DNA from: Candidatus Neomarinimicrobiota bacterium
GTDB lineage: Bacteria; Fidelibacterota; SORT01
DNA: 32,912 nt
Direction of reading: 5' to 3'
NCBI GenBank assembly: GCA_022573815.1
Contig: JACZTG010000024.1
Span: 1 to 32,912, forward strand
Within the stretch, counting starts at the first letter, position 1. The number at the start of each line of letters is the position of its first letter. The translations under genes and the position numbers were made by a program. The notes beneath the pieces were generated by a model. That model searched no databases and had not been told where the DNA came from. It saw only the letters and a list, made by a program, of their open reading frames with translations. Shown piece after piece: positions 6,247 through 32,664 of the stretch.

Positions 6247-7247
6247 ACGAATTTAAAAAGATAGCGATCACCGGCGGCGGTGGATATGTAGGGAGCGAAC
6301 TCGTCCCAACGCTTCTTGAACAAGGGAAAGAAGTAACCGTTCTGGACCTCTTCATCTACGGGGAAGATGTGTTTGGAGAGTATAGCGGTCACAAGAATCT
6401 TCGATGCATAAATGGCGACATACGAAATAAGGATGACCTGCGTGAGGCTTTCAGCGAATCCGAAGCAGTTATTCATCTCGCCTGTATCTCCAACGACCCG
6501 AGTTTTGATCTGAACCCAACATTGGGCAAAAGTATCAACCTTGATTCGTTTGACGGAATACTCTCCACATTGGAGGAAACAGGCGTACAACGGTTCATAT
6601 ACGCAAGTTCGTCCAGCGTTTACGGCGTCAGAGAGGAAGCGGATGTGAAAGAGGATACTCCGAAAAATCCTCTGACGGATTATTCGCGATTTAAACTGAT
6701 GTGCGAAGAAAAATTATCAGAATGGAAAAATCCCAACAAGTCGGATTGGACGATAATCAGACCCGCAACCGTATGCGGCTACGGAAAACGGCTTCGGTTG
6801 GATCTGACGGTAAACCTTCTGACTATTCACGCTCTTATAAACAACAGCATAAAAGTATTCGGCGGAAAACAACTTCGCCCGAATATTCATATTAACGATA
6901 TGGTTCGAGTCTATACAACCGTTCTTGAGGCTGATTCTGAAAAGATACACGGTAAAGTATTCAATGCGGGGTATGAAAATCGATCGGTGGAGGATATCGC
7001 CTTGATGGTTGCGGAAGAAGTCGGAAAGGATAGTATTGAAATAGATTATGTCCCCACTGACGACATCCGCTCTTACCATGTCAATTCCGATAAGATCGGC
7101 AGAGAACTCGGCTTTGAAACTAAACACACTATAGAGGACGCTATCACCGGAATTATTGCCGCTTATAATAAAGGCACCGTAAAAGACGGTATGAACAACC
7201 CACTTTATTACAACATAAAGCGGATGCAGGAGCTGAACCTGTCATGA
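6243..7247 (+). CDS. NAD-dependent epimerase/dehydratase (extended SDR)
   Basis: A 334-residue extended SDR with a GGGGYVG coenzyme motif at 11-17, an HLACISNDPSF segment at about 78-89, catalytic serines in ASSSSVYG (121-128) and the Tyr/Lys pair in YSRFK (Y147, K151). The HLA.ISNDPS pattern is typical of a sugar-nucleotide or sugar-phosphate SDR subgroup common in surface-glycan clusters. ATGA overlaps with the genes on both sides (6243-6246 and 7244-7247) place it firmly in the operon between the nucleotidyltransferase-kinase and the transketolase. It is only distantly similar to the SDR at 3735, so it probably performs a different step. Confidence 0.83.
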   Translation: MNEFKKIAITGGGGYVGSELVPTLLEQGKEVTVLDLFIYGEDVFGEYSGHKNLRCINGDIRNKDDLREAFSESEAVIHLACISNDPSFDLNPTLGKSINLDSFDGILSTLEETGVQRFIYASSSSVYGVREEADVKEDTPKNPLTDYSRFKLMCEEKLSEWKNPNKSDWTIIRPATVCGYGKRLRLDLTVNLLTIHALINNSIKVFGGKQLRPNIHINDMVRVYTTVLEADSEKIHGKVFNAGYENRSVEDIALMVAEEVGKDSIEIDYVPTDDIRSYHVNSDKIGRELGFETKHTIEDAITGIIAAYNKGTVKDGMNNPLYYNIKRMQELNLS

Positions 7248-8074
7248 TGACGACGATGGAAGTCGCAAACTCTCAGCTGGAGCGAATCGCCTCAAAAGCC
7301 AGAAAAGAGATAGTTCGAATGTCGTTCGAGTCAAAATCTCCTCATCTCGGCTCGTCTCTATCGGTGGTGGATATACTTATCGCCGCTTATTGGTACGGTC
7401 TGGACGTAGACCCGGAGAATCCCTACGGAGAGGGGAGAGACCGATTGATATTCAGTAAGGGACACGCAGCTGCCGCTCTTTATGCGGTATTGGCTCTCAG
7501 AGGATTTTTTTCTTTAGATCTGCTGGACAGTTACGCAAGGGAAGATACCTTGCTGGGCGAGCATCCGATAGCAAACGCTTTGCCGGGTTTGGAAGTCGCA
7601 ACCGGATCACTCGGTCACGGTCTTCCGATGGGAGTCGGGGTTGCGCTTGCAAACAAGATCAAGAATTACAACGCGAAAACAATTGTAGTGATGAGCGACG
7701 GAGAATGTAACGAGGGTTCGGTATGGGAAGCAGCGATGTTCGCTCCGGCGCACGACCTCGAAAATCTTATGGTAGTGATAGATTTTAACAAGTGGCAGGC
7801 AACAGGAAGAAGCAGGGAAGTTCTCTCGCTTGACTCTTTGGCGGAAAAATGGGAAGCGTTCGGATGGTCAACATATGAAGTGAACGGGCATGATATGACC
7901 GAACTGGCTGATGCGATGAGTTATTTCCCCGATAACAGTTGCAAACCGATAGCGATAATAGCGCACACCATAAAGGGTAAGGGCGTTTCTTTTATGGAGG
8001 ACGACAATAATTGGCATTATCGGATTCCGACTGAGGATGAAGTCGGGAAAGCAATCCTGGAGCTGACTATCTAA
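7244..8074 (+). CDS. Transketolase N-terminal (TPP-binding) subunit
   Basis: A 276-residue protein corresponding to the first half of transketolase. It has the SKGHAAAALYA segment, GSLGHGLPMGVG and the thiamin-diphosphate/Mg motif starting SDGECNEGS and ending at IDFNK. It should bind TPP and form an active site with the partner encoded immediately downstream, transferring a two-carbon ketol unit between sugar phosphates. Split transketolases occur in archaea and many bacteria, both as housekeeping enzymes and inside polysaccharide clusters; the context here argues for the second use. The start ATG overlaps the previous stop (ATGA), and the stop overlaps the partner's start (TAATG), favouring one-to-one synthesis. 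Confidence 0.9.
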   Translation: MMTTMEVANSQLERIASKARKEIVRMSFESKSPHLGSSLSVVDILIAAYWYGLDVDPENPYGEGRDRLIFSKGHAAAALYAVLALRGFFSLDLLDSYAREDTLLGEHPIANALPGLEVATGSLGHGLPMGVGVALANKIKNYNAKTIVVMSDGECNEGSVWEAAMFAPAHDLENLMVVIDFNKWQATGRSREVLSLDSLAEKWEAFGWSTYEVNGHDMTELADAMSYFPDNSCKPIAIIAHTIKGKGVSFMEDDNNWHYRIPTEDEVGKAILELTI

Positions 8075-9036
8075 TGAGAAACGCCTTCGCAGATGAACTT
8101 TTAAAGCAGAGCAAATTGCGGGACGATATCGTTCTCGTTACAGGGGACATTGGTAACCGCTTGTTCGATCCTTTCAAGGAAGCAAATCCAAACAATTTTT
8201 ATAATGCCGGAGTTGCTGAAGCGAACGCTATCGGAATGGCGGCAGGGTTGTCTATGGGCGGTTTCAAGCCGATAGTCTATACGATTGCCACATTTGTTAC
8301 CGCGCGATGTTTTGAGCAGATAAAAGTAGATGTCTGTTACAACGGCAATCCCGTAATAATCGTCGGCGTTGGAGGAGGATTCTCTTATGCGGGTAACGGA
8401 GCAACGCATCATTCGTTCGAGGATATTGCGATATTAAGGTCGCTTCCCGAAATCAGCATCGTGGCTCCCGCAGATTCCTATGAGGTAAGAGGGGCGTTAC
8501 GGGCGGCGTTAAAACATGATAAACCGGTATATCTCAGGCTGGGCAAGAAAAACGAACCGCTCGTGCATGATTCAGTTCCGAATTTTTCTATCGGAAAAAG
8601 TATAAGACTGAAAAAGGGCAACGAGGTTTGTATTCTCTCAACGGGAAATATAACTCCTGAAGCGATGGCGGCGGCTGAGATGCTCGAAACTGAGGGGATT
8701 TCAACGGAACTGATGAGTTTCCATACTATAAAACCGCTTGACAGGGAATACCTGGAAGAGGCGTTTAATAACTTCAGATTGGTTGTGACCGTTGAGGAAC
8801 ACGGTATTATCGGAGGTCTGGGTGGCGCTGTTTCTGAATGGAAAGCGGCAGAAGAACTTCGAAGCGAGATTACCGCAAAGTTGTTGTCAGTGGGAGCGAA
8901 AGACAGTTTTATGCACCGAAGCGGCAACCAGACATACGCCAGAAAACATTTCGGGCTGGATTCGGAGAGTATCAGAAGCAGGATAACGGAAGTGTATGAA
9001 AAGACTTACCTGTCGGAATTGGGAGTAAGTTTTTGA
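8074..9036 (+). CDS. Transketolase C-terminal (pyrimidine-binding) subunit
   Basis: A 320-residue protein matching the Pyr and C-terminal domains of transketolase. The catalytic glutamate that activates the TPP aminopyrimidine is expected at E49 in NAGVAEANAIGMAAGLS. THHSFEDIAILR and an APADSYEVR strand follow, then the C-terminal domain with VEEHGIIGGLGGAVSE. It pairs with the preceding subunit, with starts and stops interlocked by one base. Acceptor and donor sugars cannot be read from the sequence. Its place between an NDP-sugar SDR and a dehydrogenase suggests that the ketose it makes is reduced or activated for glycan synthesis. Confidence 0.9.
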   Translation: MRNAFADELLKQSKLRDDIVLVTGDIGNRLFDPFKEANPNNFYNAGVAEANAIGMAAGLSMGGFKPIVYTIATFVTARCFEQIKVDVCYNGNPVIIVGVGGGFSYAGNGATHHSFEDIAILRSLPEISIVAPADSYEVRGALRAALKHDKPVYLRLGKKNEPLVHDSVPNFSIGKSIRLKKGNEVCILSTGNITPEAMAAAEMLETEGISTELMSFHTIKPLDREYLEEAFNNFRLVVTVEEHGIIGGLGGAVSEWKAAEELRSEITAKLLSVGAKDSFMHRSGNQTYARKHFGLDSESIRSRITEVYEKTYLSELGVSF

Positions 9037-19446: not shown

Positions 19447-19455
19447 GTGGAACCG

Positions 19456-21147
19456 TTGAGTAGTAAATTGATAAGAAAATTCTCTTATTCGGACTTATTG
19501 TCGTTGTCGAATAATTCTGAAGAGGATGACAAAAACTCCTATAAAATAGGCTTTCTTCGTTCATACTCTATAGAAGTTATGGAGCCTGTATTAAGAGGTT
19601 TGACTCTGTTTGAACAATATTCATTGGACTGTAAGTATAGTAATTTCAATAATATACTTCAGGATTCGTTCGAGTTGGAAAATATATTCTCCGGAGAATT
19701 TGATATGCTTATCGTTAATTGGCGAAAAGCTGATATCGGCGATTCTGATTCGGAAACAGCAAAATATGTCGAGACAACTTTAGGGAATATTTCCTCTTTT
19801 ATGGAGAGGAATCATTCGGTCAGGGTTCTTGTTCATTCGTTCATAAAGGATGAGGCTGTAAATAAGTCTGATGAAATAATAAGAGAGTTTTGTGAATCCA
19901 ACGCTAACGCTTACCTCTTGGATATGGAAAAAGTGAGATCAATGATGCCCGAAGTAAATATCTATTCCGAAAGTATGGAACGAATCGCGAAATATCCGTT
20001 GACTAAAGAAGCGACGATCCTGATAGCCAAACGATACCTTTCGATAATGAGGATCGTATTCGGCTTTCAAAAAAAGTGCTTATCAATTGATCTGGATTAC
20101 ACGGCATGGGATGGGATTTTAGGCGAAGACGGAGAGGAGAGTGTTTACGATTCTCTGAAAACCGGCACAGGATATTCTGAATTTTGGGAATATATGACGA
20201 CCCTTCTGAAGAACGGAGTAATTCTGTGTATTAACAGTAAAAATAACGAGGAGGATGTAAAGCAGCTGTTTGAAAATCGTAATATGCCTCTCGCCTGGGA
20301 TGATTTTATTGTCAAACAAATAAACTGGTTGCCCAAGAGTCATAATATACAAACGATAGCGAAAGAGCTGAATATTGGTGCGGATAGTATCGTCCATTTA
20401 GATGACAGCGAGTTCGAATGTGAGGAAATTTTGGCTGGAGTCCCGGAAACTACAGTGGTGTATTCGGGCGATGGTCCTCAGGAATCGGTGCGGATATTGA
20501 CCGAAGGAGGATATTTTGACTCACTTACCCGGTCAGTTGATGACAGTCTCAGAACTGAATCTTATCGCTCCGAACAGAAACGAAAGGAAGAGAAATCTTC
20601 ATATCCGGATCTGAATTCATTTATTAAGTCACTCTCGTTACAGCTTACTGTTTTTAAAGTCAGAGAAACTGATCTTGACCGGATTAGCCAGCTTTATTTA
20701 AAGACCAATCAATTCAATATGACCACTATAAGGTACAGTATGGGTGAGTTGAAAAAGTTTATTTCCGATTCAGATAAATTATTGTATGGCTATTCTCTTG
20801 AGGATAAATTCGGAGAATATGGAATTATCGGCTCTTACTTGATAGATTTGAAAGAATCTGAATGGCGTATCGATTCTTTCCTGATGAGTTGCCGCGCTAT
20901 AGGAAGAAAAGTCGAATTTGCGGTGATGAACAAAATTGTGACAGACGCGTTGGTAAACGGCGTCAATAAGTTATTCGCGCAGTACGAAAAAACCCCTAAA
21001 AACGGGTTTTTGGAAAAGTTTTATGATGAGTTAGGGTTCAAACGAATAAGAGTGGATAACAACAGGGTCACCTACGAATTGAACAGTTCAGAATACCGGA
21101 ACGTTAACGAGGGGATGATAAAAATCAGAGAACTGAATGATGGATGA
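19456..21147 (+). CDS. FkbH-like HAD-IIIC family protein (acyl/glyceryl transfer to ACP)
   Basis: A 563-residue three-part protein: an N-terminal SGNH-like region (to about 195), a HAD domain with nucleophile motif SIDLDYTAWDG (DLDYT 212-216), INSKNN (SKN 261-263) and HLDDSEFE (DD 316-317), and a GNAT-like C-terminal domain from about 380 (LKTNQFNMTT, SYLIDL, SCRAIGRKVE). Characterised FkbH proteins take glycerate from 1,3-bisphosphoglycerate, dephosphorylate it and load it on an acyl carrier protein; such a carrier follows directly. The usual DLDNTLWGG is altered here to DLDYTAWDG. I choose TTG 19456 because GGAG (19444-19447) is 8 bases upstream; GTG 19447 would overlap that site. The gene overlaps the ACP gene by 11 bases. 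Confidence 0.82.
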   Translation: MSSKLIRKFSYSDLLSLSNNSEEDDKNSYKIGFLRSYSIEVMEPVLRGLTLFEQYSLDCKYSNFNNILQDSFELENIFSGEFDMLIVNWRKADIGDSDSETAKYVETTLGNISSFMERNHSVRVLVHSFIKDEAVNKSDEIIREFCESNANAYLLDMEKVRSMMPEVNIYSESMERIAKYPLTKEATILIAKRYLSIMRIVFGFQKKCLSIDLDYTAWDGILGEDGEESVYDSLKTGTGYSEFWEYMTTLLKNGVILCINSKNNEEDVKQLFENRNMPLAWDDFIVKQINWLPKSHNIQTIAKELNIGADSIVHLDDSEFECEEILAGVPETTVVYSGDGPQESVRILTEGGYFDSLTRSVDDSLRTESYRSEQKRKEEKSSYPDLNSFIKSLSLQLTVFKVRETDLDRISQLYLKTNQFNMTTIRYSMGELKKFISDSDKLLYGYSLEDKFGEYGIIGSYLIDLKESEWRIDSFLMSCRAIGRKVEFAVMNKIVTDALVNGVNKLFAQYEKTPKNGFLEKFYDELGFKRIRVDNNRVTYELNSSEYRNVNEGMIKIRELNDG

Positions 21148-24080: not shown

Positions 24081-24993
24081 GCAGCAATCAATCGTGCATT
24101 TTATCGGAGTTCGTATCAAACGCAGATGGCTGAAAGTTTATGGCAAGTCAGTATGTGCAACTGTTTTGCATACGCTGGTTCTTATATCCGTTACGAGTGT
24201 CATATCTTGCTCCGATGGTTTGGGACCCGTCGCCGGACTCAATGGTAAGGTCAACTTTTTAGGAGAATGGCCTGATAGTTTGGCTGGCGCTGTAGTCGCT
24301 GCTTTTTTGAGTATTCCCTCGAGTTTGGATGAGGACCCTTAAGGTATAAGCGATATTATTCCGAACGGAATTGAAGAATCATCTTATTTCATCCAACTTA
24401 ATCCTGCAAGGTACGCAATGATTCTCGTTGCGGGAATCAAACCGGATTCATCTGCGGTTTTATTGAAAGTTTTTGCCGGTGTGATTGTAGAAGCAGGCAC
24501 AGAAACTCCAAACATCGATATCAGCGATGGCGTTATCAGGTTCAGGAACGTTAGCGCCGCTTTCACACAGGGAATGGAATTTTCTCTTTCTTCTAATCCG
24601 TTCGGGAGATTGGAAATCGTAACGTTATATACTTATATCGATTCAGGAGACAAAGTATTGAGAGTCCCGCTTACCTATAGGCACAAGCATATATTTGCAC
24701 TCTATCCCTCCATAAAGCTGGCGGATATTAAACTTACAATGGAATACAGATATAAAAGCCGGGTTGACAGGGTAGCCATTTTCCAAGAAAATCCTATCAC
24801 CGGTCAGGACAAAAGGATTCCGATAAAGTTAATTGACGTTAGAGTTGAAGTTCCTATTTCTATAGGGCACATCAGATTCACCATTGCGAATCTGACCAAT
24901 TATCATTATACAGAAATTGAGCGTTCGATGAGACCCGGACGAAGTTTCGTTATATCATTCAGTACAATTATTAATCATACCAAAACGCCGTAG
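24079..24993 (+). pseudogene. Broken lipoprotein / TonB-dependent receptor chimera
   Basis: One frame holds two unrelated parts. The 5' part (24079-24339) encodes a basic start, a hydrophobic segment and the lipobox-like SVISC, then a domain beginning LNGKVNFLGEWPDS. It is interrupted by TAA at 24340-24342. The same frame continues with coherent sequence (ISDIIPNGIEESSYFIQLNP..) through an ATG at 24418. From about 24523 it changes to an outer-membrane beta-barrel C-terminus: RFRNVSAAFTQGMEFSL, alternating strands and a final ANLTNYHYTEIERSMRPGRSFVISFS typical of TonB-dependent receptors. The plug and most of the barrel are missing. I infer a deletion that fused a lipoprotein gene to a neighbouring receptor gene, plus a nonsense mutation. 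It is probably non-functional. Confidence 0.65.
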
Positions 24994-25295: not shown

Positions 25296-26027
25296 ATGGG
25301 TAAACTAATAGCTTTCTTATATGGAATTATTGCGTACGCGGTATTTTTTGGATCCTTTTTATATGCTATCGGATTCGTCGGTAATTTGATAGTGCCTAAA
25401 TCCATTGATTCGGGCATGGAAGGACCACTTATGGAATCTATACTAATCAATGCATTGCTGCTTGGTCTTTTTGCCGTCCAGCACAGCGTCATGGCGCGGC
25501 CGGCTTTTAAAAACTGGTGGACGAAATTTGTTCCGAAGACTGTGGAGCGAAGCACTTATGTACTTATCGCAAGCTTGCTGCTTTTCCTTATGTTCTGGCA
25601 GTGGCGACCATTGCCGGGAATAGTATGGAATGTCGAGAACAGTACAGCATCGATGATCCTGACTGTGCTTTTCTGGGCCGGCTGGGGTATTGTGCTTGTA
25701 TCAACATTTATCATCAATCATTTTGACCTATTCGGATTGAGGCAGGTGTATGCCAATTTACGGAGCACAGAGCTTACACCGCTTAAATTTCAAACAAGGT
25801 TATTCTACAAATATGTGCGCCATCCTATAATGACAGGATTCATAATAGCATTCTGGGCGGCGCCGCAGATGTCGCTGGGGCATCTAATTTTCGCCGTCGC
25901 AACGACAGGCTATATCATAATAGGTATTCATTTTGAAGAGAAAGACCTGATAGACATCCACGGTGACACTTATACAGAATACCGAAACAATGTATCAATG
26001 CTATTCCCATTGCCCAAGAAGAGATAG
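25296..26027 (+). CDS. mddA: Methanethiol S-methyltransferase-like membrane protein (MddA/NnrU/ICMT family)
   Basis: A 243-residue membrane protein of the isoprenylcysteine-methyltransferase fold. [20 protein letters not shown] (21-40), [13 protein letters not shown] (57-69), ERSTYVL and WQWRP are the segments I associate with MddA. The SAM-binding C-terminus has [10 protein letters not shown] (RHP 175-177) and [16 protein letters not shown]. MddA methylates methanethiol to dimethyl sulfide using SAM at the inner membrane. Five to six hydrophobic helices are visible. A strong AAGGAG precedes ATG 25296. It is a single-gene unit: a long leader upstream, a strong hairpin terminator downstream. 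Substrate identity is by resemblance; related NnrU-type proteins remain an alternative. Confidence 0.78.
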
Positions 26028-26116: not shown

Positions 26117-26158
26117 TTGTAATCTGTAAATAATGTTCATAAATTGACCACATGGTCA
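26117..26158 (+). promoter_or_regulatory. tetR promoter with palindromic operator over the start codon
   Basis: TTGTAA (26117-26122), 17 bases and TAAATT (26140-26145) form a modest promoter whose start point would fall at about 26152, the tetR ATG itself. Overlapping this is the perfect palindrome TGACCA-CA-TGGTCA (26145-26158), with the ATG in its centre. This is the size and symmetry of a TetR-family operator, suggesting autorepression of the downstream operon. Confidence 0.5.
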
Positions 26159-26853
26159 TTTCAAAATTCATTACCCGAAAGAAGATTGAGGAGCCTGAAG
26201 AATCAGAGCAATTCAATCATCTACCCGCTGAGAAAAAAACCAGAATTACAGATGCGTTCATAAGCGAATTCGCTAAAAAGGGTTTTAGGGCGGCAAGCAT
26301 GAATAAGATTGTGGAGCGGGCAGGTATCTCAAAAGGCTCAATCTTCAATTATTTCACTTCAAAAAACCAACTGTTTATGTATGCGTATAAAGTTGCGTTT
26401 GAGCGCGTCAAAGAATATCTACGCGAAGTCAGGGATGAGACAAAAGACGAAGAATTTTTTACCCGATTTCAGAAAGTAATGGAAGCGGGTGTCCGGTTCG
26501 TCAAGAAACATCCCAATTTGGCGAGGATTTATTACCGGATATTGTACACGGGTGATTCGCCTGAAGGAGTAGCGATTTTGCAGGAAATACATGCGGAATC
26601 TATGAAGTTTATAAGCTCCTTCGTTGAGCAAGGCGTTGAGAGAGGCGAAATATCAGCGGAGATTGATGTGGATAAGGCTGCTTTCATTCTTGAAAGCGTA
26701 CTAAACCGATTTCTGCAAGTTCAGCATCAGAACGTTCTGGACCCATCTTTAAAGCTTTACGGCGCAAGCAGCGAAGAATCTGAGCGGTGGATAGAAGAAA
26801 TGGTGACTCTGTTAAGAAATTGGATGGGAGTAAATTCAAATGAAGCTAAATAA
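26152..26853 (+). CDS. TetR-family transcriptional regulator
   Basis: A 233-residue repressor-type protein. The N-terminal helix-turn-helix is at about 31-76 (ITDAFISEFAKKGF, then MNKIVERAGISKGSIFNYFTSKNQL), and a longer helical ligand-binding domain follows. An N-terminal extension of 30 polar residues precedes the HTH. No Shine-Dalgarno is visible before ATG 26152, consistent with a leaderless message from the promoter placed over it. The 3' end overlaps the substrate-binding-protein gene by 14 bases, making it the first gene of the ABC/prenyltransferase/receptor operon, which it probably controls in response to the transported or derived compound. Confidence 0.88.
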   Translation: MVISKFITRKKIEEPEESEQFNHLPAEKKTRITDAFISEFAKKGFRAASMNKIVERAGISKGSIFNYFTSKNQLFMYAYKVAFERVKEYLREVRDETKDEEFFTRFQKVMEAGVRFVKKHPNLARIYYRILYTGDSPEGVAILQEIHAESMKFISSFVEQGVERGEISAEIDVDKAAFILESVLNRFLQVQHQNVLDPSLKLYGASSEESERWIEEMVTLLRNWMGVNSNEAK

Positions 26854-27787
26854 ATCATCCAAAGTCATAATGCTCGGAGCGCTTATTTTATCCCTGATTA
26901 CGAGTTGCTCCGATTCAAAGAAACCGGTTGACTTAAAGTTCGGCGTATTGCCTGTGATACAGGCATTGCCTCTTTTCGTCGCGGTAGATAAGGGGTTTTT
27001 CGAGGAGGCATCGTTAAATGTAGAACTCGTTAATTTCAGGTCTGCAATGGGAATTGACATCGCGCTGACCGCAGGTCAAATTGCCGGATATTTCGGAGAT
27101 TTGATAACTCCGGTGATCTTAAAGTCGAATAGTACTCCCGTTCGCATAGCTGCTTCATTCACTAATACGGTTCATAATCAGAGGATGTTCGCGCTTTTGC
27201 TGCCACCGGGTGCCGAAAAAATCACTGTTTCCGAAGCTGCAAAATTGGGAATTGCCACGAGCTCCAACACGATTGTGGACTATTTCATTTATCTGCTGTT
27301 AGGCGGGAAAGAGACCGAAAATGCCACTGATTATAAAATCGTGGAAACGAAAAATATTCCCATTCGCCTCCAACTGTTATTGAACGGCCAGTTTGCCGCA
27401 GCTGTATTGTCAGAACCAATGGTAACATTCGCGGAGATGAACGGGGCGCAGGTAATTGGGGAAGACAGGGGAATGCCGTTTTCGGTTACGACACTTTCAT
27501 TTACAGAAAATTTTTTAGAAGATTCCCCCGAGATTGTAAAGACTTTCCTGCAAGTGGTAGAAAAATCAATCAAATATATTGAAGCTAATCCCGATTCGGT
27601 TCGCCAAATTATGAACTCTCATGTGAACGTTCCAAAGGAACTTCAGGATAGCATTGCAATCCCCAAATTTCCTGAAGCTGCACTTCCGGACCATGAACAG
27701 CTTGATAATGTTATCGATTGGCTGAAAATGAAACAGATAATCAAGACAGAAATACGTTATGAGGACTTGATAATTCGTGACAACTAA
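26840..27787 (+). CDS. ABC transporter substrate-binding lipoprotein (NMT1/SsuA type)
   Basis: A 315-residue lipoprotein: signal peptide 1-22 with lipobox LITSC (C23), then a type II periplasmic-binding fold of the SsuA/TauA/THI5-NMT1 group (LKFGVLPVIQALPLFVAVDKGFFEEASLNVELVNF at the N-lobe, an AGQIAGYFGD hinge and LSEPMVTFAE). Relatives bind sulfonates, pyrimidine thiamin precursors or aromatic acids; the ligand here cannot be read. GGGAG precedes ATG 26840, inside the tetR 3' end. It works with the ATPase and permease encoded next. Confidence 0.88.
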   Translation: MKLNKSSKVIMLGALILSLITSCSDSKKPVDLKFGVLPVIQALPLFVAVDKGFFEEASLNVELVNFRSAMGIDIALTAGQIAGYFGDLITPVILKSNSTPVRIAASFTNTVHNQRMFALLLPPGAEKITVSEAAKLGIATSSNTIVDYFIYLLLGGKETENATDYKIVETKNIPIRLQLLLNGQFAAAVLSEPMVTFAEMNGAQVIGEDRGMPFSVTTLSFTENFLEDSPEIVKTFLQVVEKSIKYIEANPDSVRQIMNSHVNVPKELQDSIAIPKFPEAALPDHEQLDNVIDWLKMKQIIKTEIRYEDLIIRDN

Positions 27788-28535
27788 TAATAATCTTCTT
27801 AAAGTCGAAAACCTCAGTAAAGTTTTTCCAAACGGCGATAAAGAAAAGGTGGTGCTTTCGGGGATTAACATAGATTTGGCAGTGGGTGAATCCATTTCAA
27901 TTGCGGGGCCGTCGGGATGTGGAAAAACTACGCTGCTGCTTATCATAGCGGGTCTGATTTCTCCGACGGCAGGCAACATATCTCTGAACGGAAAGGCTTA
28001 CTCTAAACCAAGTAACGATTTAGCCTTGGTATTGCAAGACTACGGCTTGCCACCGTGGAAGAGAGTGAAAGAAAACATCACTCTCGGAGCGCGCCTGCAA
28101 AATATTACGGTAAGCGATGATGAGTTGAATGACCTGAAATCTCAGCTTAAAATTGAGGGATTAGATCATTTGTATCCTCATCAATTAAGCGGAGGACAGC
28201 GACAGCGAGTCGCCCTGGCGAGGACTCTGTTGCTAAAACCTAAATTGTTGTTATTGGACGAGCCGTTCGCCGCCATTGATGCGCTTACCCGGGAAAGCCT
28301 CCAAAAAATGCTGTTAAGAATTTCCGATCAACGTAAACTGAGTTTCATAATTGTAACGCATAACGTGGAAGAAGCGTCTCTTTTGGGCGGACGAATAATG
28401 GTTATGGAATCAAACGGAGGAGCTATCAACACAGTTATTGATAATCCCGGTTTTTCGAGTGACGGCTACCGGGAAACACCTGAGTTCTTTGAAATGGTCA
28501 ATCATCTGAGACAGGTTTTGAAGGCAACAAGTTAA
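27777..28535 (+). CDS. ABC transporter ATPase (NitT/TauT type)
   Basis: A 252-residue nucleotide-binding subunit with all motifs: Walker A GPSGCGKTT (44-52), Q-loop LVLQDYGLPPW, signature LSGGQRQRVALAR, Walker B LLLLDEP, D-loop AAID and the switch histidine in IVTHNVEEA. The start is GTG 27777, overlapping the lipoprotein gene by 11 bases. It drives import with the adjacent permease. Length is normal for the family. Confidence 0.93.
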   Translation: MTTNNNLLKVENLSKVFPNGDKEKVVLSGINIDLAVGESISIAGPSGCGKTTLLLIIAGLISPTAGNISLNGKAYSKPSNDLALVLQDYGLPPWKRVKENITLGARLQNITVSDDELNDLKSQLKIEGLDHLYPHQLSGGQRQRVALARTLLLKPKLLLLDEPFAAIDALTRESLQKMLLRISDQRKLSFIIVTHNVEEASLLGGRIMVMESNGGAINTVIDNPGFSSDGYRETPEFFEMVNHLRQVLKATS

Positions 28536-28537
28536 TT

Positions 28538-29281
28538 ATGCCGAGGTATTTATCATATTTGATAACATTGGCAATTGTTCTATTAATTTGGTATGCCGCG
28601 TCAATTCAATTGGGCGCCAACTTGCTGCCGAACCCGATTTCAGTATTGAGTCTTCTGCTGAGTGAGGCGGGCAGCGCGGATTATTGGGCTCACGTGGGGA
28701 TAAGTTCGTGGCGAATTATAGCGGGAGTGGGATTGGCGTTTATCTTTGCTGTGCCGTTGGGATTAATCGTGGGAAGCAGCCCGAAGATAAATAGAATTTT
28801 TTCGCCGATAATATATATGAGTTATCCTGTGCCGAAGATTGTTCTTCTGCCGATAATACTGCTTCTGTTTGGTATCGGCGATGCGAGTAAAATAATTCTC
28901 ATTATGCTGATTGTATTTTTTCAGGTTTTTATCACGTCACGGGATGCGGCGCGAAATATAAGTAAAGAGATGATTCTCTCTTTCAGGTCACTTGGCGGAA
29001 ACAGACTTCAATATTACCGGCATATAGTTCTCCCTGCAAGCCTGCCCGGTATTTTTACGTCAATGCGTTTAGCGGGAGGCACGGCGGTAGCGGTCCTGTT
29101 TTTCGTGGAATCTATCAGCGCATCCCACGGGCTTGGTTTATACATCATAGATGCGTGGGGTAGGGCAGATTACACGGCAATGTATGTCGGCATTGTATCT
29201 ATGTCCTTTTTAGGGATTATCCTGTATGAATTTTTCGAAATTTTGGAAAGAAAAACCTGCAAATGGAAATATACTCAATGA
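28538..29281 (+). CDS. ABC transporter permease (NitT/TauT, BPD type)
   Basis: A 247-residue inner-membrane permease with about six hydrophobic helices. The cytoplasmic EAA-like loop reads SFRSLGGNRLQYYRHIVLPASLPGIFTSMRL in part (the G-x9-LP pattern). NPISVLSLL and YPVPKIVLLPI are typical of the SsuC/TauC group. It starts 2 bases after the ATPase stop and ends within the prenyltransferase start (ATGA at 29278-29281). Confidence 0.92.
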   Translation: MPRYLSYLITLAIVLLIWYAASIQLGANLLPNPISVLSLLLSEAGSADYWAHVGISSWRIIAGVGLAFIFAVPLGLIVGSSPKINRIFSPIIYMSYPVPKIVLLPIILLLFGIGDASKIILIMLIVFFQVFITSRDAARNISKEMILSFRSLGGNRLQYYRHIVLPASLPGIFTSMRLAGGTAVAVLFFVESISASHGLGLYIIDAWGRADYTAMYVGIVSMSFLGIILYEFFEILERKTCKWKYTQ

Positions 29282-30165
29282 AATTCGGGAGATGGAATGA
29301 TTGGGTTCAGGCGAGCCGCCCGCCATTTTACATCGCTACGTTCATTCCGCTCACAATGGGATTCGTGCTTGCGGGAAATGAGGGCATCTGGGAACCCGCT
29401 CTATTCGCAATAATTAATTTGGGAGCTTTTTTAGTTCACCTCGCTACTAATATCGCCAACGATTATTTCGATCATGTGCAGGGAAGCGATTCAGGGGTTT
29501 CAATCGGCGGCTCCCGCGTAATTCAGGAGGAAAAGATTTCTCCGAATGTCCTTTTAACCTCAATAATATTGATGTATGCGGGCGCAACAGGGGTAGCGAT
29601 ATATCTCACGAGCTCGCTGAATATACCGGAATTATGGTGGCTTCTGTCATTTGCGTTTCTAAGCAGTTTGTTTTATGTGGCGCCGCCGATTCGATACGGA
29701 TACCGAGGTCTTGGAGAGCTGTTGGTAGGGATAAATATGGGTCCTATCATAGTGTTGGGTTCTTATTGGGTGATGACGGGGACTCCCAGCGTTGAACCTG
29801 TCTGGATTTCAATTCCGGCAGGTCTGATGGTCGCTTTCATCCTTTATTATCAAAGTTTGCCGGATATGGTAACCGATGAAAACGCGGGCAAACGAACGCT
29901 TGCCGTCCGACTTGGCAGAAAAGGAGCTCAGATCGGGATAATAGTTTTCGGGGTGGCTGTTTATTCGGCAATCATCTTCGAATATATCACAGGAAGATAT
30001 TCCGCAGTGAGTCTGGTTTCAATTATAACGCTACCGCTTTTCATAAAAATTGTGAGTTTAGCAAAGAGGACTTCAGATTGGGTAGAGCTGGATAAACATG
30101 GAAATTATGTGCGGTTGTTCTATCTGATAAATGGAGTGATACTGATATTGGCGATCAACATATAA
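29278..30165 (+). CDS. UbiA-family prenyltransferase (MenA-like)
   Basis: A 295-residue integral membrane prenyltransferase with both Asp-rich, Mg-diphosphate-binding motifs: NDYFD (61-65, followed by HVQGSD) and DMVTD (196-200, followed by ENAGKRTLAVRLG), plus eight to nine hydrophobic helices. The ANDYFD..GSD and DEN.GKRTLAVRLG strings resemble MenA, which prenylates 1,4-dihydroxy-2-naphthoate in menaquinone synthesis, but no men or mqn gene is in the window. I place the start at ATG 29278, which interlocks with the permease stop; an upstream in-frame ATG at 29263 would add five residues. Being co-transcribed with an importer and a receptor gene is unusual for this family. Confidence 0.85.
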   Translation: MKFGRWNDWVQASRPPFYIATFIPLTMGFVLAGNEGIWEPALFAIINLGAFLVHLATNIANDYFDHVQGSDSGVSIGGSRVIQEEKISPNVLLTSIILMYAGATGVAIYLTSSLNIPELWWLLSFAFLSSLFYVAPPIRYGYRGLGELLVGINMGPIIVLGSYWVMTGTPSVEPVWISIPAGLMVAFILYYQSLPDMVTDENAGKRTLAVRLGRKGAQIGIIVFGVAVYSAIIFEYITGRYSAVSLVSIITLPLFIKIVSLAKRTSDWVELDKHGNYVRLFYLINGVILILAINI

Positions 30166-30199
30166 AAAACAAAAACTACAAAAAATAGAAGAGGCAAAA

Positions 30200-32614
30200 A
30201 TGGGAAGTAAACTATACGCGGTAACGCTAATTGTACTATTGGCAGTAGGTTCGGTCTATGCCGGATCCGGCACAATCAGCGGAGTCATCACGGGCGAAAA
30301 CGGTAATCCGATTATAGGCGCTAATGTATGGCTTAAAGGCACTACGATAGGCTCGTCAACACGAATAGACGGCAGTTACCGGATAAGCGGAATTCCAAAT
30401 GGAGCATATCAGATAATTGCTGCTCATATAGGAAACCAATCTGTGGAAATTCCTATCATTGTCACAGGGAATAGCGCGGAGATAAATATAACTATGCTGG
30501 AAGGATTTATTTACGGTGAGGAAGTTGTCGTATCAAGCACGCTCAGACCACAGAAATTGGTGGACGCGCCTGGAACTATCTCGGTAGTATACACCGAAGA
30601 GCTCCACAAAGCGGCGGGATTTTCGTTCGCGAATTCTATACAGAACGTCAAAGGCGTTAACGTCTATCGTAACGGTATTGACGGAGTCGGCATCAGCGCG
30701 CGAGGTTTTATGACCGCTTATAACTATCGTTTTCAGCTTATGACCGACGGAATGAACAGTATGCTCACGGGCAACGGTTTCTCCGGAACGCATATGAATC
30801 TCACATCGAAGGAGGACCTGGAACGGGTAGAGGTAGTGGTCGGGCCGAGTTCCGCGCTATATGGTCCCAACGCTCATAACGGAATGATGAATGTTATAAC
30901 GTTGCATCCGAGAGATTCGCAAGGCGGGATATTAGTGGTTGGCTCCGGTCAGAACGATATTATTAATATCAGAGGTCGCTATGCCGGTGTGTCCGGACCC
31001 TTCTCATATAAAATTAACGCCGAGAGTCTCACAGGAAAAGATTGGGATGACAACAGGAAATATTGGCTGGATCTGAACGGTAACGGAACCGAAGATGACG
31101 GCGAGTTCACCATTGAAGGAAACAATTTTCCCATTGAGCATCTCCGTGGAAGTGGGAACGTTTTTTATGATTTGAACGAAGATATCGAACTAACCGGCGG
31201 CTACAGCTATTACAAATTTTCGACGCGGAATATGACCAATATCGGTCACAACATCATAAAAGACTGGAAGATGCAACGCTGGAATATCGGAGCGACACAT
31301 CCTCGATTTTTTGTTCGGCTTCATGGTAGTGAAAACGAATCCGGTGAATATTATCAGGAAGATATCAGGGCTCTTGTTCAGTTAGCATTTGGACTAACTC
31401 AACAACAGGCGATAGACGCGACCAACTTAGTAGATAAGTCAACCTCCATCGCGGGCGAGGTACAGGGTAATATACTGCTTGAAAAAATCAATCTTATCGG
31501 TGGTGTGAGCTGGGAACATGAAACACCCATAAGCGAACGTACTGTCCTTCTGGACAGAGGCATTGACCCCATATCAGGATTGTTAACAGGAGAGAATATA
31601 ACCGTGGATCAGGTTGGATTTTACGGGCAGGTTGAGCGTGACCTGATTAAGGATTTCGAGTTCACCACGGCATTCCGGTTCGACACTCACAGCAACTACG
31701 AAAGCCAGCTGAGTCCGCGATTCGGATTGGTTTGGAAAGGTCTGAAGAACGGAAATTTCAGAGTGACATGGAACCGCGCGTTTCAAGCGCCTTCCATCGC
31801 GCAGCAATATCTGTATATCGCGATACCGGGTTCACGGTATCAGGCAGGTAACGGGTTAGGGTTTACTTTGGCTGACGGTTCTACCATAGATCCGCTTGAG
31901 CCTGAAATAAACGAGACGTTCGAATTCGGTTACAAGGGTACGCCTCTGAACAGATTATTCGTGGACGGAAGCTATTACATCAGCAAATACACCAATTTCA
32001 TAAGCGGATTTATTCCTGTCGGAAACGCGGTGAAAATGGGTGATACCGATCTCGACCCGTCTCTTCCGTTGCTGACATATTTGAATTTCGGTGAAGTCAC
32101 GTTGACTGGATTTGACGTTGAACTAAAATACAGCCTGGACAACAGCTATCGCCTGTTCGGTAATTTCTCCTTTGTGGACGCGTCGGATTTCGATAACGAA
32201 AAAGAGAAAGCAAAGACCACAGCTGATGCGCAATTTTACAGTGGCTTCTTTTTTAACACCGCTGAAATGAAATGGCATCTCGGTATTGAAGGGAAGGACA
32301 TCGGCACTCCCGGTCTTGATCTGTCAATTAAAGCGCGTCACGTTAATGAATATGACTTCGTCTCGGGGAAATGGTCTGCTACACAAGCAGGAGCCGGCAC
32401 TATTCCGGCATTTGCGGCAGGAAATCCATACTACGCGGATAACGGTCCGCTGGGCGGATTCACGCTTGTTGACCTAAACGCCGCCTATCCTGTGAACGAA
32501 ACTGTTTCTTTGGTTCTGAATATTGAGAATGTATTTGATACAGAAGCGTTTCAGATGGTAGGCTCGCCGTCAACAGCCAGATTAGCGATATTGGAAGTTA
32601 AGTATTCGTTTTAG
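30200..32614 (+). CDS. TonB-dependent receptor with CarboxypepD_reg-like N-terminal domain
   Basis: An 804-residue outer-membrane receptor. Signal peptide 1-21 ends in VYA. A CarboxypepD-regulatory-like beta-sandwich covers about 24-105 (SGVITGENGNPIIGANVWLKGT). A TonB-box-like EEVVVSS precedes the plug (about 108-235, with ERVEVVVGPSSALYGPNAHNGMMNVIT), and a 22-strand-type barrel ends in the terminal aromatic KYSF. GAAGAGG precedes ATG 30200. It probably brings the substrate of the upstream ABC system across the outer membrane. It is the last gene before a strong terminator. The ligand is unknown; there is no visible siderophore or SusD partner. Confidence 0.93.
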   Translation: MGSKLYAVTLIVLLAVGSVYAGSGTISGVITGENGNPIIGANVWLKGTTIGSSTRIDGSYRISGIPNGAYQIIAAHIGNQSVEIPIIVTGNSAEINITMLEGFIYGEEVVVSSTLRPQKLVDAPGTISVVYTEELHKAAGFSFANSIQNVKGVNVYRNGIDGVGISARGFMTAYNYRFQLMTDGMNSMLTGNGFSGTHMNLTSKEDLERVEVVVGPSSALYGPNAHNGMMNVITLHPRDSQGGILVVGSGQNDIINIRGRYAGVSGPFSYKINAESLTGKDWDDNRKYWLDLNGNGTEDDGEFTIEGNNFPIEHLRGSGNVFYDLNEDIELTGGYSYYKFSTRNMTNIGHNIIKDWKMQRWNIGATHPRFFVRLHGSENESGEYYQEDIRALVQLAFGLTQQQAIDATNLVDKSTSIAGEVQGNILLEKINLIGGVSWEHETPISERTVLLDRGIDPISGLLTGENITVDQVGFYGQVERDLIKDFEFTTAFRFDTHSNYESQLSPRFGLVWKGLKNGNFRVTWNRAFQAPSIAQQYLYIAIPGSRYQAGNGLGFTLADGSTIDPLEPEINETFEFGYKGTPLNRLFVDGSYYISKYTNFISGFIPVGNAVKMGDTDLDPSLPLLTYLNFGEVTLTGFDVELKYSLDNSYRLFGNFSFVDASDFDNEKEKAKTTADAQFYSGFFFNTAEMKWHLGIEGKDIGTPGLDLSIKARHVNEYDFVSGKWSATQAGAGTIPAFAAGNPYYADNGPLGGFTLVDLNAAYPVNETVSLVLNIENVFDTEAFQMVGSPSTARLAILEVKYSF

Positions 32615-32638: not shown

Positions 32639-32664
32639 TAAAGCCCCTTATTCAAGGGGCTTTA
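32639..32664. terminator. Bidirectional terminator between the receptor gene and typA
   Basis: Perfect 11-bp stem TAAAGCCCCTT (32639-32649) / AAGGGGCTTTA (32654-32664) with a 4-base loop. It lies 24 bases after the receptor stop and 36 bases from the typA stop, so it can serve both convergent genes. Confidence 0.85.

Follow-up and report, generated by a model that had tools for sequence, protein, structure and literature searches.

Organization of the operon

The window considered here, a stretch of 32,912 nucleotides analyzed in full, is the entire contig JACZTG010000024.1 (C24) of a metagenome-assembled genome (MAG) of a Candidatus Neomarinimicrobiota bacterium (GCA_022573815.1; 2.39 Mb, 65 contigs, 96% complete). 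Gene calls were based on a listing of its open reading frames (ORFs) together with Pfam and NCBIfam scans. Near one end of the contig, six genes follow one another on the forward strand and encode a TetR-family regulator, a lipoprotein substrate-binding protein (SBP), the ATPase and the permease of an ATP-binding cassette (ABC) importer, a MenA-like prenyltransferase of the UbiA family, and a TonB-dependent receptor (Table 1). In operon order, the junctions measure -14, -11, +2, -19, and +34 bp. The preliminary description of this DNA had presented the first five genes as a co-directional, overlapping set, followed 34 bp later by the receptor gene and then by a terminator. This layout is borne out, as three of the four junctions within the set are overlaps, the receptor gene begins at the distance given, and a terminator-like hairpin lies behind it. 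Hairpins are no commoner in the overall scan than in shuffled sequences, and this one was judged by its position and quality. The UbiA gene probably starts at its second ATG, at position 29278, which is favored because this ATG overlaps the permease stop codon as ATGA, a common overlap.

Table 1. Features of the six-gene operon, in window coordinates
Feature	Position	Strand	Basis
Probable TetR operator	26145..26158	.	palindrome TGACCACATGGTCA over the TetR start codon; sole match in the window
TetR-family regulator	26152..26853	+	PF00440, E 8.5e-15; TetR_C_5-like
Lipoprotein SBP, NMT1_2/SsuA-like	26840..27787	+	lipobox LITSC; PF13379, E 2e-9
ABC importer ATPase, NitT/TauT type	27777..28535	+	PF00005, E 7.6e-32
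ABC importer permease, NitT/TauT type	28538..29281	+	PF00528, E 5e-25
MenA-like UbiA prenyltransferase	29263..30165	+	PF01040, E 2.5e-29; motifs NDYFDHVQGSD and DMVTD
TonB-dependent receptor with N-terminal CarboxypepD_reg domain	30200..32614	+	PF13715, PF07715, PF00593
Terminator-like hairpin at the operon end	32639..32664	+	11-pair stem, 4-base loop, CTATTT tail

Prenyltransferase and importer proteins

The UbiA protein carries both aspartate-rich motifs of its fold, NDxxDxxxGxD and DxxxD. A profile search against the PDB matched a single chain, UBIAD1 (8djk), with full-length coverage (E 4.4e-26). UBIAD1 is the synthase of menaquinone-4 (MK-4), and the match places the window enzyme on the MenA/UBIAD1 side of the family as opposed to the UbiA side. 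The best NCBIfam models are 1,4-dihydroxy-2-naphthoate (DHNA) polyprenyltransferases, all of which score under their cut-offs, and for this reason the protein is not filed as MenA. Despite the shared fold, motifs, and best models, it differs from MenA and UBIAD1 in belonging to a separate clade, in being encoded in one operon with an importer, and in residing in a genome without the Men pathway. In a tree with the other UbiA proteins of the phylum, the enzymes of the operon and those of the three-gene loci described below form one clade with support 100/100. A literature search for a UbiA enzyme combined with an ABC importer and a TonB receptor found nothing.

An SBP, a BPD_transp_1 permease, and an ABC ATPase encoded together identify the importer as one of NitT/TauT type. 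It shares with SsuABC, TauABC, NtrABC, ThiXYZ, and SaoXAP an NMT1/SsuA-type SBP, one ATPase, and one permease, but stays under every curated equivalog or subfamily cut-off and occurs together with a prenyltransferase and a TonB receptor; its SBP, ATPase, and permease could therefore not be assigned to SsuABC, TauABC, or SaoXAP. The SBP reaches 63.7 bits against TIGR01728 (SsuA_fam; cut-off 163.5), and its nearest solved structures are 4nmy and proteins of the THI5/THI13/ThiY type. The nearest models of the ATPase are SaoA (209 of 360), TauB, and NtrCD, those of the permease SaoP, TauC (114.5 of 342), and SsuC, and the best named matches of the receptor are heme and siderophore receptors. The arrangement resembles vitamin uptake by BtuB with BtuFCD in that receptor, SBP, ATPase, and permease provide for passage across two membranes, but here the importer is of NitT/TauT type and the gene of the enzyme that putatively uses the cargo lies between those of permease and receptor. 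AlphaFold models built from three-sequence alignments (pLDDT 44 for the SBP and 49.6 for UbiA) were too poor and were set aside.

Conservation in two phyla

By its UbiA, the window genome has a Candidatus Neomarinimicrobiota MAG as its closest named relative. Profiles of the UbiA protein and of the SBP were searched across 245 Neomarinimicrobiota genomes. The UbiA profile singled out six genomes at E <1e-100, with the next best match at 1e-52: the window genome (G000), G196, G197, and G198 belong to one family, G033 and G034 to another. At E 1e-15 the SBP profile returned the same six genomes and none besides. The complete set of six genes, in the order seen in the window, is present at L056 (G198; also L004), L057, L058, where the receptor ORF is shortened, and L059. 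At L060 (G034), where the contig edge falls inside the SBP gene, five of the six genes are found and the order is kept. Given this recurrence, the gene set is no chance grouping, and since the flanking genes differ between loci, the six genes are taken as the unit. The importer stands beside UbiA in all six carriers; the neighborhood singled out in the preliminary description is thus a conserved one. Identity to the window proteins, gene by gene, is 70-87% in the family of the window genome and 41-57% in that of G033 and G034 (TetR, 85-86% and 45%; receptors in the same position, 80-84% and 55-56%).

Two of these loci have particular surroundings. The operon of G198 is followed by genes for a molybdopterin oxidoreductase and a NapB-like cytochrome (L056:1043-4036), named from a reading of the translations; this respiratory neighborhood is not common to the other operon genomes. 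In G034, a fusion protein of a PNPOx-like domain and a MenA-like UbiA is encoded about 210 bp past the receptor gene of the operon (L060:5553-7064), with a methyltransferase and then a NUDIX protein downstream.

Outside the phylum of the window, a UbiA relative occurs in SZUA-178 (G245, deposited as a proteobacterium; L005). In the class of G245, UbiA is found at E 1e-95 or better in six of 12 genomes. Four loci (L094, L095, L096, and L097) show the gene order TetR-SBP-UbiA, the contig of L005/L093 carries the SBP gene followed by UbiA, and the copy at L098 has decayed, its SBP being shortened and its UbiA interrupted by a stop. The proteins are 40-43% (TetR), 40-44% (SBP), and 47-51% (UbiA) identical to those of the window, and the SBPs have a plain signal peptide in place of the lipobox. 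PF02621, the family of the futalosine-pathway enzymes MqnA and MqnD, has no match in the G245 genome. Because genes for ATPase, permease, and receptor do not adjoin TetR-SBP-UbiA at these loci, the most conserved core, as judged from gene order, is that of regulator, binding protein, and prenyltransferase; the SBP is the constant partner of UbiA in both phyla, while the remaining importer parts come or go. In two genomes of the class, a 4Fe-4S protein of about 425 amino acids is encoded after UbiA (L096:9009-10286, L097:6431-7711).

The window contains the motif TGACCNNNNGGTCA once, against a chance expectation of 0.02, in the form of the perfect palindrome TGACCACATGGTCA, and the motif lies on or within about 45 bp of the TetR start at L056, L057, L058, L059, L094, L095, L096, and L097. 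The arms of the palindrome do not change, whereas the sequence around them and their distance from the start codon do, among lineages only 40-45% alike in protein. As this is the pattern expected of a real operator, TGACCNNNNGGTCA is a probable TetR operator, and the genes behind it are likely a TetR-controlled unit in both phyla.

Quinone metabolism of the host genome and its phylum

The host genome encodes only three UbiA-family proteins. One is CyoE (262 bits, cut-off 210), encoded beside cytochrome oxidase genes, so that heme O synthesis was rejected as the role of the window enzyme. Another is a prenyltransferase of the geranylgeranylglyceryl phosphate (GGGP) type, with PRK12884 as its best model. 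The window protein is therefore the sole MenA-like enzyme of its genome. The two known routes to the naphthoquinone ring were not found: no match to MqnA or MqnD (PF02621) of the futalosine pathway was obtained in the host genome, and nothing scored above the cut-offs for MenD and MenB of the classical Men pathway. Two weak MenD matches are an acetolactate synthase and IolD, and the best weak MenB match is a short-chain enoyl-CoA hydratase; all three were rejected. By contrast to MenD and MenB, the methyltransferase UbiE/MenG is kept (226 bits, cut-off 158), and the genome encodes two NuoH proteins in addition to the cytochrome oxidase. A cell with NuoH, oxidase genes, a MenA-like enzyme, and UbiE but no MenD or MqnA should need quinone while having neither of the known routes to its ring. 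MenD and MqnA/MqnD are also absent from the other five operon genomes in the phylum; four of the six carriers are more than 90% complete. The gene content thus differs from that of a sole menA serving a complete menaquinone pathway beside an importer that is not conserved, which is what would have spoken against the earlier proposal: the pathway is missing and the importer is conserved.

Across the phylum, MenD (E 1e-30) is present in 71 of the 245 genomes and PF02621 in 8, with both in one, which leaves 167 genomes with neither. Since loss of these routes is so common, their absence from the operon genomes is not significant alone, and a statistical anticorrelation between the operon and menD or mqn genes was considered too weak to count.

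MenA-like UbiA proteins occur in further settings in the phylum. In G195 (L061:5711-8886 and L062/L063), one is flanked by a CrtI-like desaturase and a PAP2 protein, and a second stands beside a CAAX-type protease, shared with G197. Other Neomarinimicrobiota encode fusions of about 430 amino acids in which an N-terminal PAS_9 domain precedes a MenA-like UbiA (L064:6162-7433, L065, L066, L068, L069, L071, L072, and L018-L040). Judged by frame length among the matches listed, about 38 of the 245 genomes have such a PAS-UbiA fusion; among the same matches it never co-occurs with menD, against 11 co-occurrences expected (hypergeometric 6e-7, uncorrected for kinship). These fusions are possibly a second menD-independent quinone route, or a sensor.

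Proposed function and alternatives

Salvage of DHNA has a precedent. Porphyromonas strains that have only the last two genes of the pathway, menA and menG, grow on DHNA, and the presence of these two without the upstream genes is a known signature of DHNA users (PMC9704088). It is also a signature of quinone auxotrophs such as Lactiplantibacillus plantarum, which keeps menA and menG (PMC8303990) and takes up quinone by a route still to be identified (PMC10746273). The window genome displays the same pattern, with the prenylation and methylation genes kept, MenD and MenB missing, and a quinone-dependent chain present. It differs from the DHNA salvagers (Porphyromonas pasteri, some P. gingivalis, and L. 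plantarum), for which no importer is known, in that its prenyltransferase shares an operon with a dedicated TonB receptor and ABC importer; use of DHNA is here putative.

On these grounds, the operon may serve the TetR-controlled salvage of a soluble quinone head-group precursor, a reading that we regard as evenly poised between right and wrong. The precursor would most likely be a naphthoate, DHNA or one closely related to it. The TonB receptor would carry it through the outer membrane, the SBP, a lipoprotein, would capture it in the periplasm, and the NitT/TauT-type ATPase and permease would move it into the cytoplasm. The MenA-like UbiA would then attach a polyprenyl chain to it in the membrane, UbiE/MenG, encoded elsewhere, would complete the quinone, and the finished product would serve the chain of complex I and oxidase. 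TetR would bind TGACCNNNNGGTCA at its own start and would let go in response to the precursor, to the finished quinone, or to a redox signal. We infer the direction of transport, the ligand, the UbiA substrate, and the TetR effector alike, and the proposal that the precursor is DHNA itself is a decidedly tentative one. Salvage accounts for the presence of importer and enzyme in one operon, for an enzyme kept without its pathway, and for the SBP as the constant partner of UbiA.

The preliminary description had likewise suggested that an aromatic or quinone precursor is imported and prenylated, a proposal that is partly supported. Its gene-content side holds up, with a sole MenA-like enzyme, no MenD, MenB, MqnA, or MqnD upstream of it, a conserved importer, and a retained UbiE, but several observations weigh against it. 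The UbiA protein falls short of all curated MenA cut-offs (TIGR00751, 100.2 versus 102.15; NF004751, 133.5 versus 264), and the 4% of the MAG that is missing could hide single genes. Neither route is found in 53 of the 94 good genomes of the phylum, so that the probability of all four good operon genomes lacking the two routes is about 0.1 even before kinship is allowed for. G195, a member of the same family that is 96% complete, lacks the operon as well as both routes and has two other MenA-like UbiA proteins; another head-group route or other uptake systems therefore probably exist there and in the phylum. Finally, the triad of the second phylum has no importer genes adjoining it.

In one alternative, the window UbiA is the MenA of an unrecognized de novo head-group route, widespread in menD-less Neomarinimicrobiota, and the importer brings some other need of that route or of the respiratory chain. 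The 167 genomes without MenD and PF02621, many of which keep other MenA-like UbiA proteins, fit such a route, as do the two enzymes of G195 and the PAS-UbiA fusions, never alongside menD among the matches listed. It is nevertheless unlikely in our estimate, given that a comparison of the operon loci yielded no head-group candidate genes common to their neighborhoods and that the constant partner of UbiA in both phyla is an SBP, not a biosynthetic enzyme. Similarly improbable is an unrelated cargo of the sulfonate, thiamin pyrimidine, heme, or siderophore type, with UbiA merely needed under the same condition. While the importer proteins are nearest to SsuA/TauB/SaoA-type and THI5/ThiY-type proteins and the receptor to heme and siderophore receptors, none of the equivalog cut-offs is reached, and in each of the two phyla SBP and UbiA are linked and share the same TetR and operator, with the importer parts variable, the opposite of what an unrelated cargo would lead one to expect.

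A further possibility is that the SBP-fold protein does not serve chiefly in a transporter. It would act with UbiA and TetR in the periplasm, where it would carry or sense a quinone-related compound, and the importer parts would be an addition made in Neomarinimicrobiota. TetR-SBP-UbiA without adjacent ATPase or permease genes in the G245 class, and the plain signal peptides there in place of a lipobox, agree with it, and some SBP-fold proteins are enzymes (THI5, MqnA, and MqnD). Orphan SBPs are, however, often served by transporters encoded elsewhere, and the SBP, ATPase, and permease of Neomarinimicrobiota are joined in a single overlapping unit, which makes this the least probable of the three alternatives and a very unlikely one.

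The salvage reading would have consequences beyond this genome. A 2016 survey of quinone pathways noted that import genes were still to be annotated and would have to be predicted and then tested (PMC4746308), and no importer for a DHNA-type precursor turned up in the literature searched. The operon supplies concrete proteins and an operator as candidates for the missing precursor-transport genes, and is a good candidate for, rather than a demonstration of, an importer of quinone precursors that is coupled to its prenyltransferase. It might represent, although we would put this somewhat below an even chance, the first importer of a quinone head-group precursor to be defined from genomes. A TonB receptor and an ABC importer dedicated to DHNA-like naphthoates would then be tied through TetR to the prenyltransferase by which these compounds are anchored in the membrane, bacteria that have ceased to make the ring would respire on precursor leaked by their neighbors, and the TetR-SBP-UbiA core would mark the same way of life in a phylum unrelated to this one. 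Quinone-precursor auxotrophy is a hidden nutritional dependence that could help to explain why Neomarinimicrobiota and similar groups resist cultivation, and TetR-SBP-UbiA with TGACCNNNNGGTCA offers a sequence signature with which to seek it.

Neighboring genes in the window

Directly upstream of the operon, positions 25296-26027 encode the methanethiol S-methyltransferase MddA (375 bits, cut-off 270), a dimethyl sulfide-forming enzyme, here in a Neomarinimicrobiota genome. It was rejected as a member of the operon, as mddA does not adjoin the operon in relatives. Upstream of mddA, a 191-amino-acid remnant (24418-24993) matches the C-terminal end alone of a BtuB-like TonB receptor and is probably a decayed receptor gene. 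Most of the remaining window (215-23851) is a large cluster of surface-polysaccharide type, whose members were named from a reading of their translations: nucleotide-sugar epimerases, a DegT-type aminotransferase, a glycosyltransferase, a split transketolase pair (7244-9036), an FkbH-like protein (19447-21147), and two tandem Gfo/Idh oxidoreductases.

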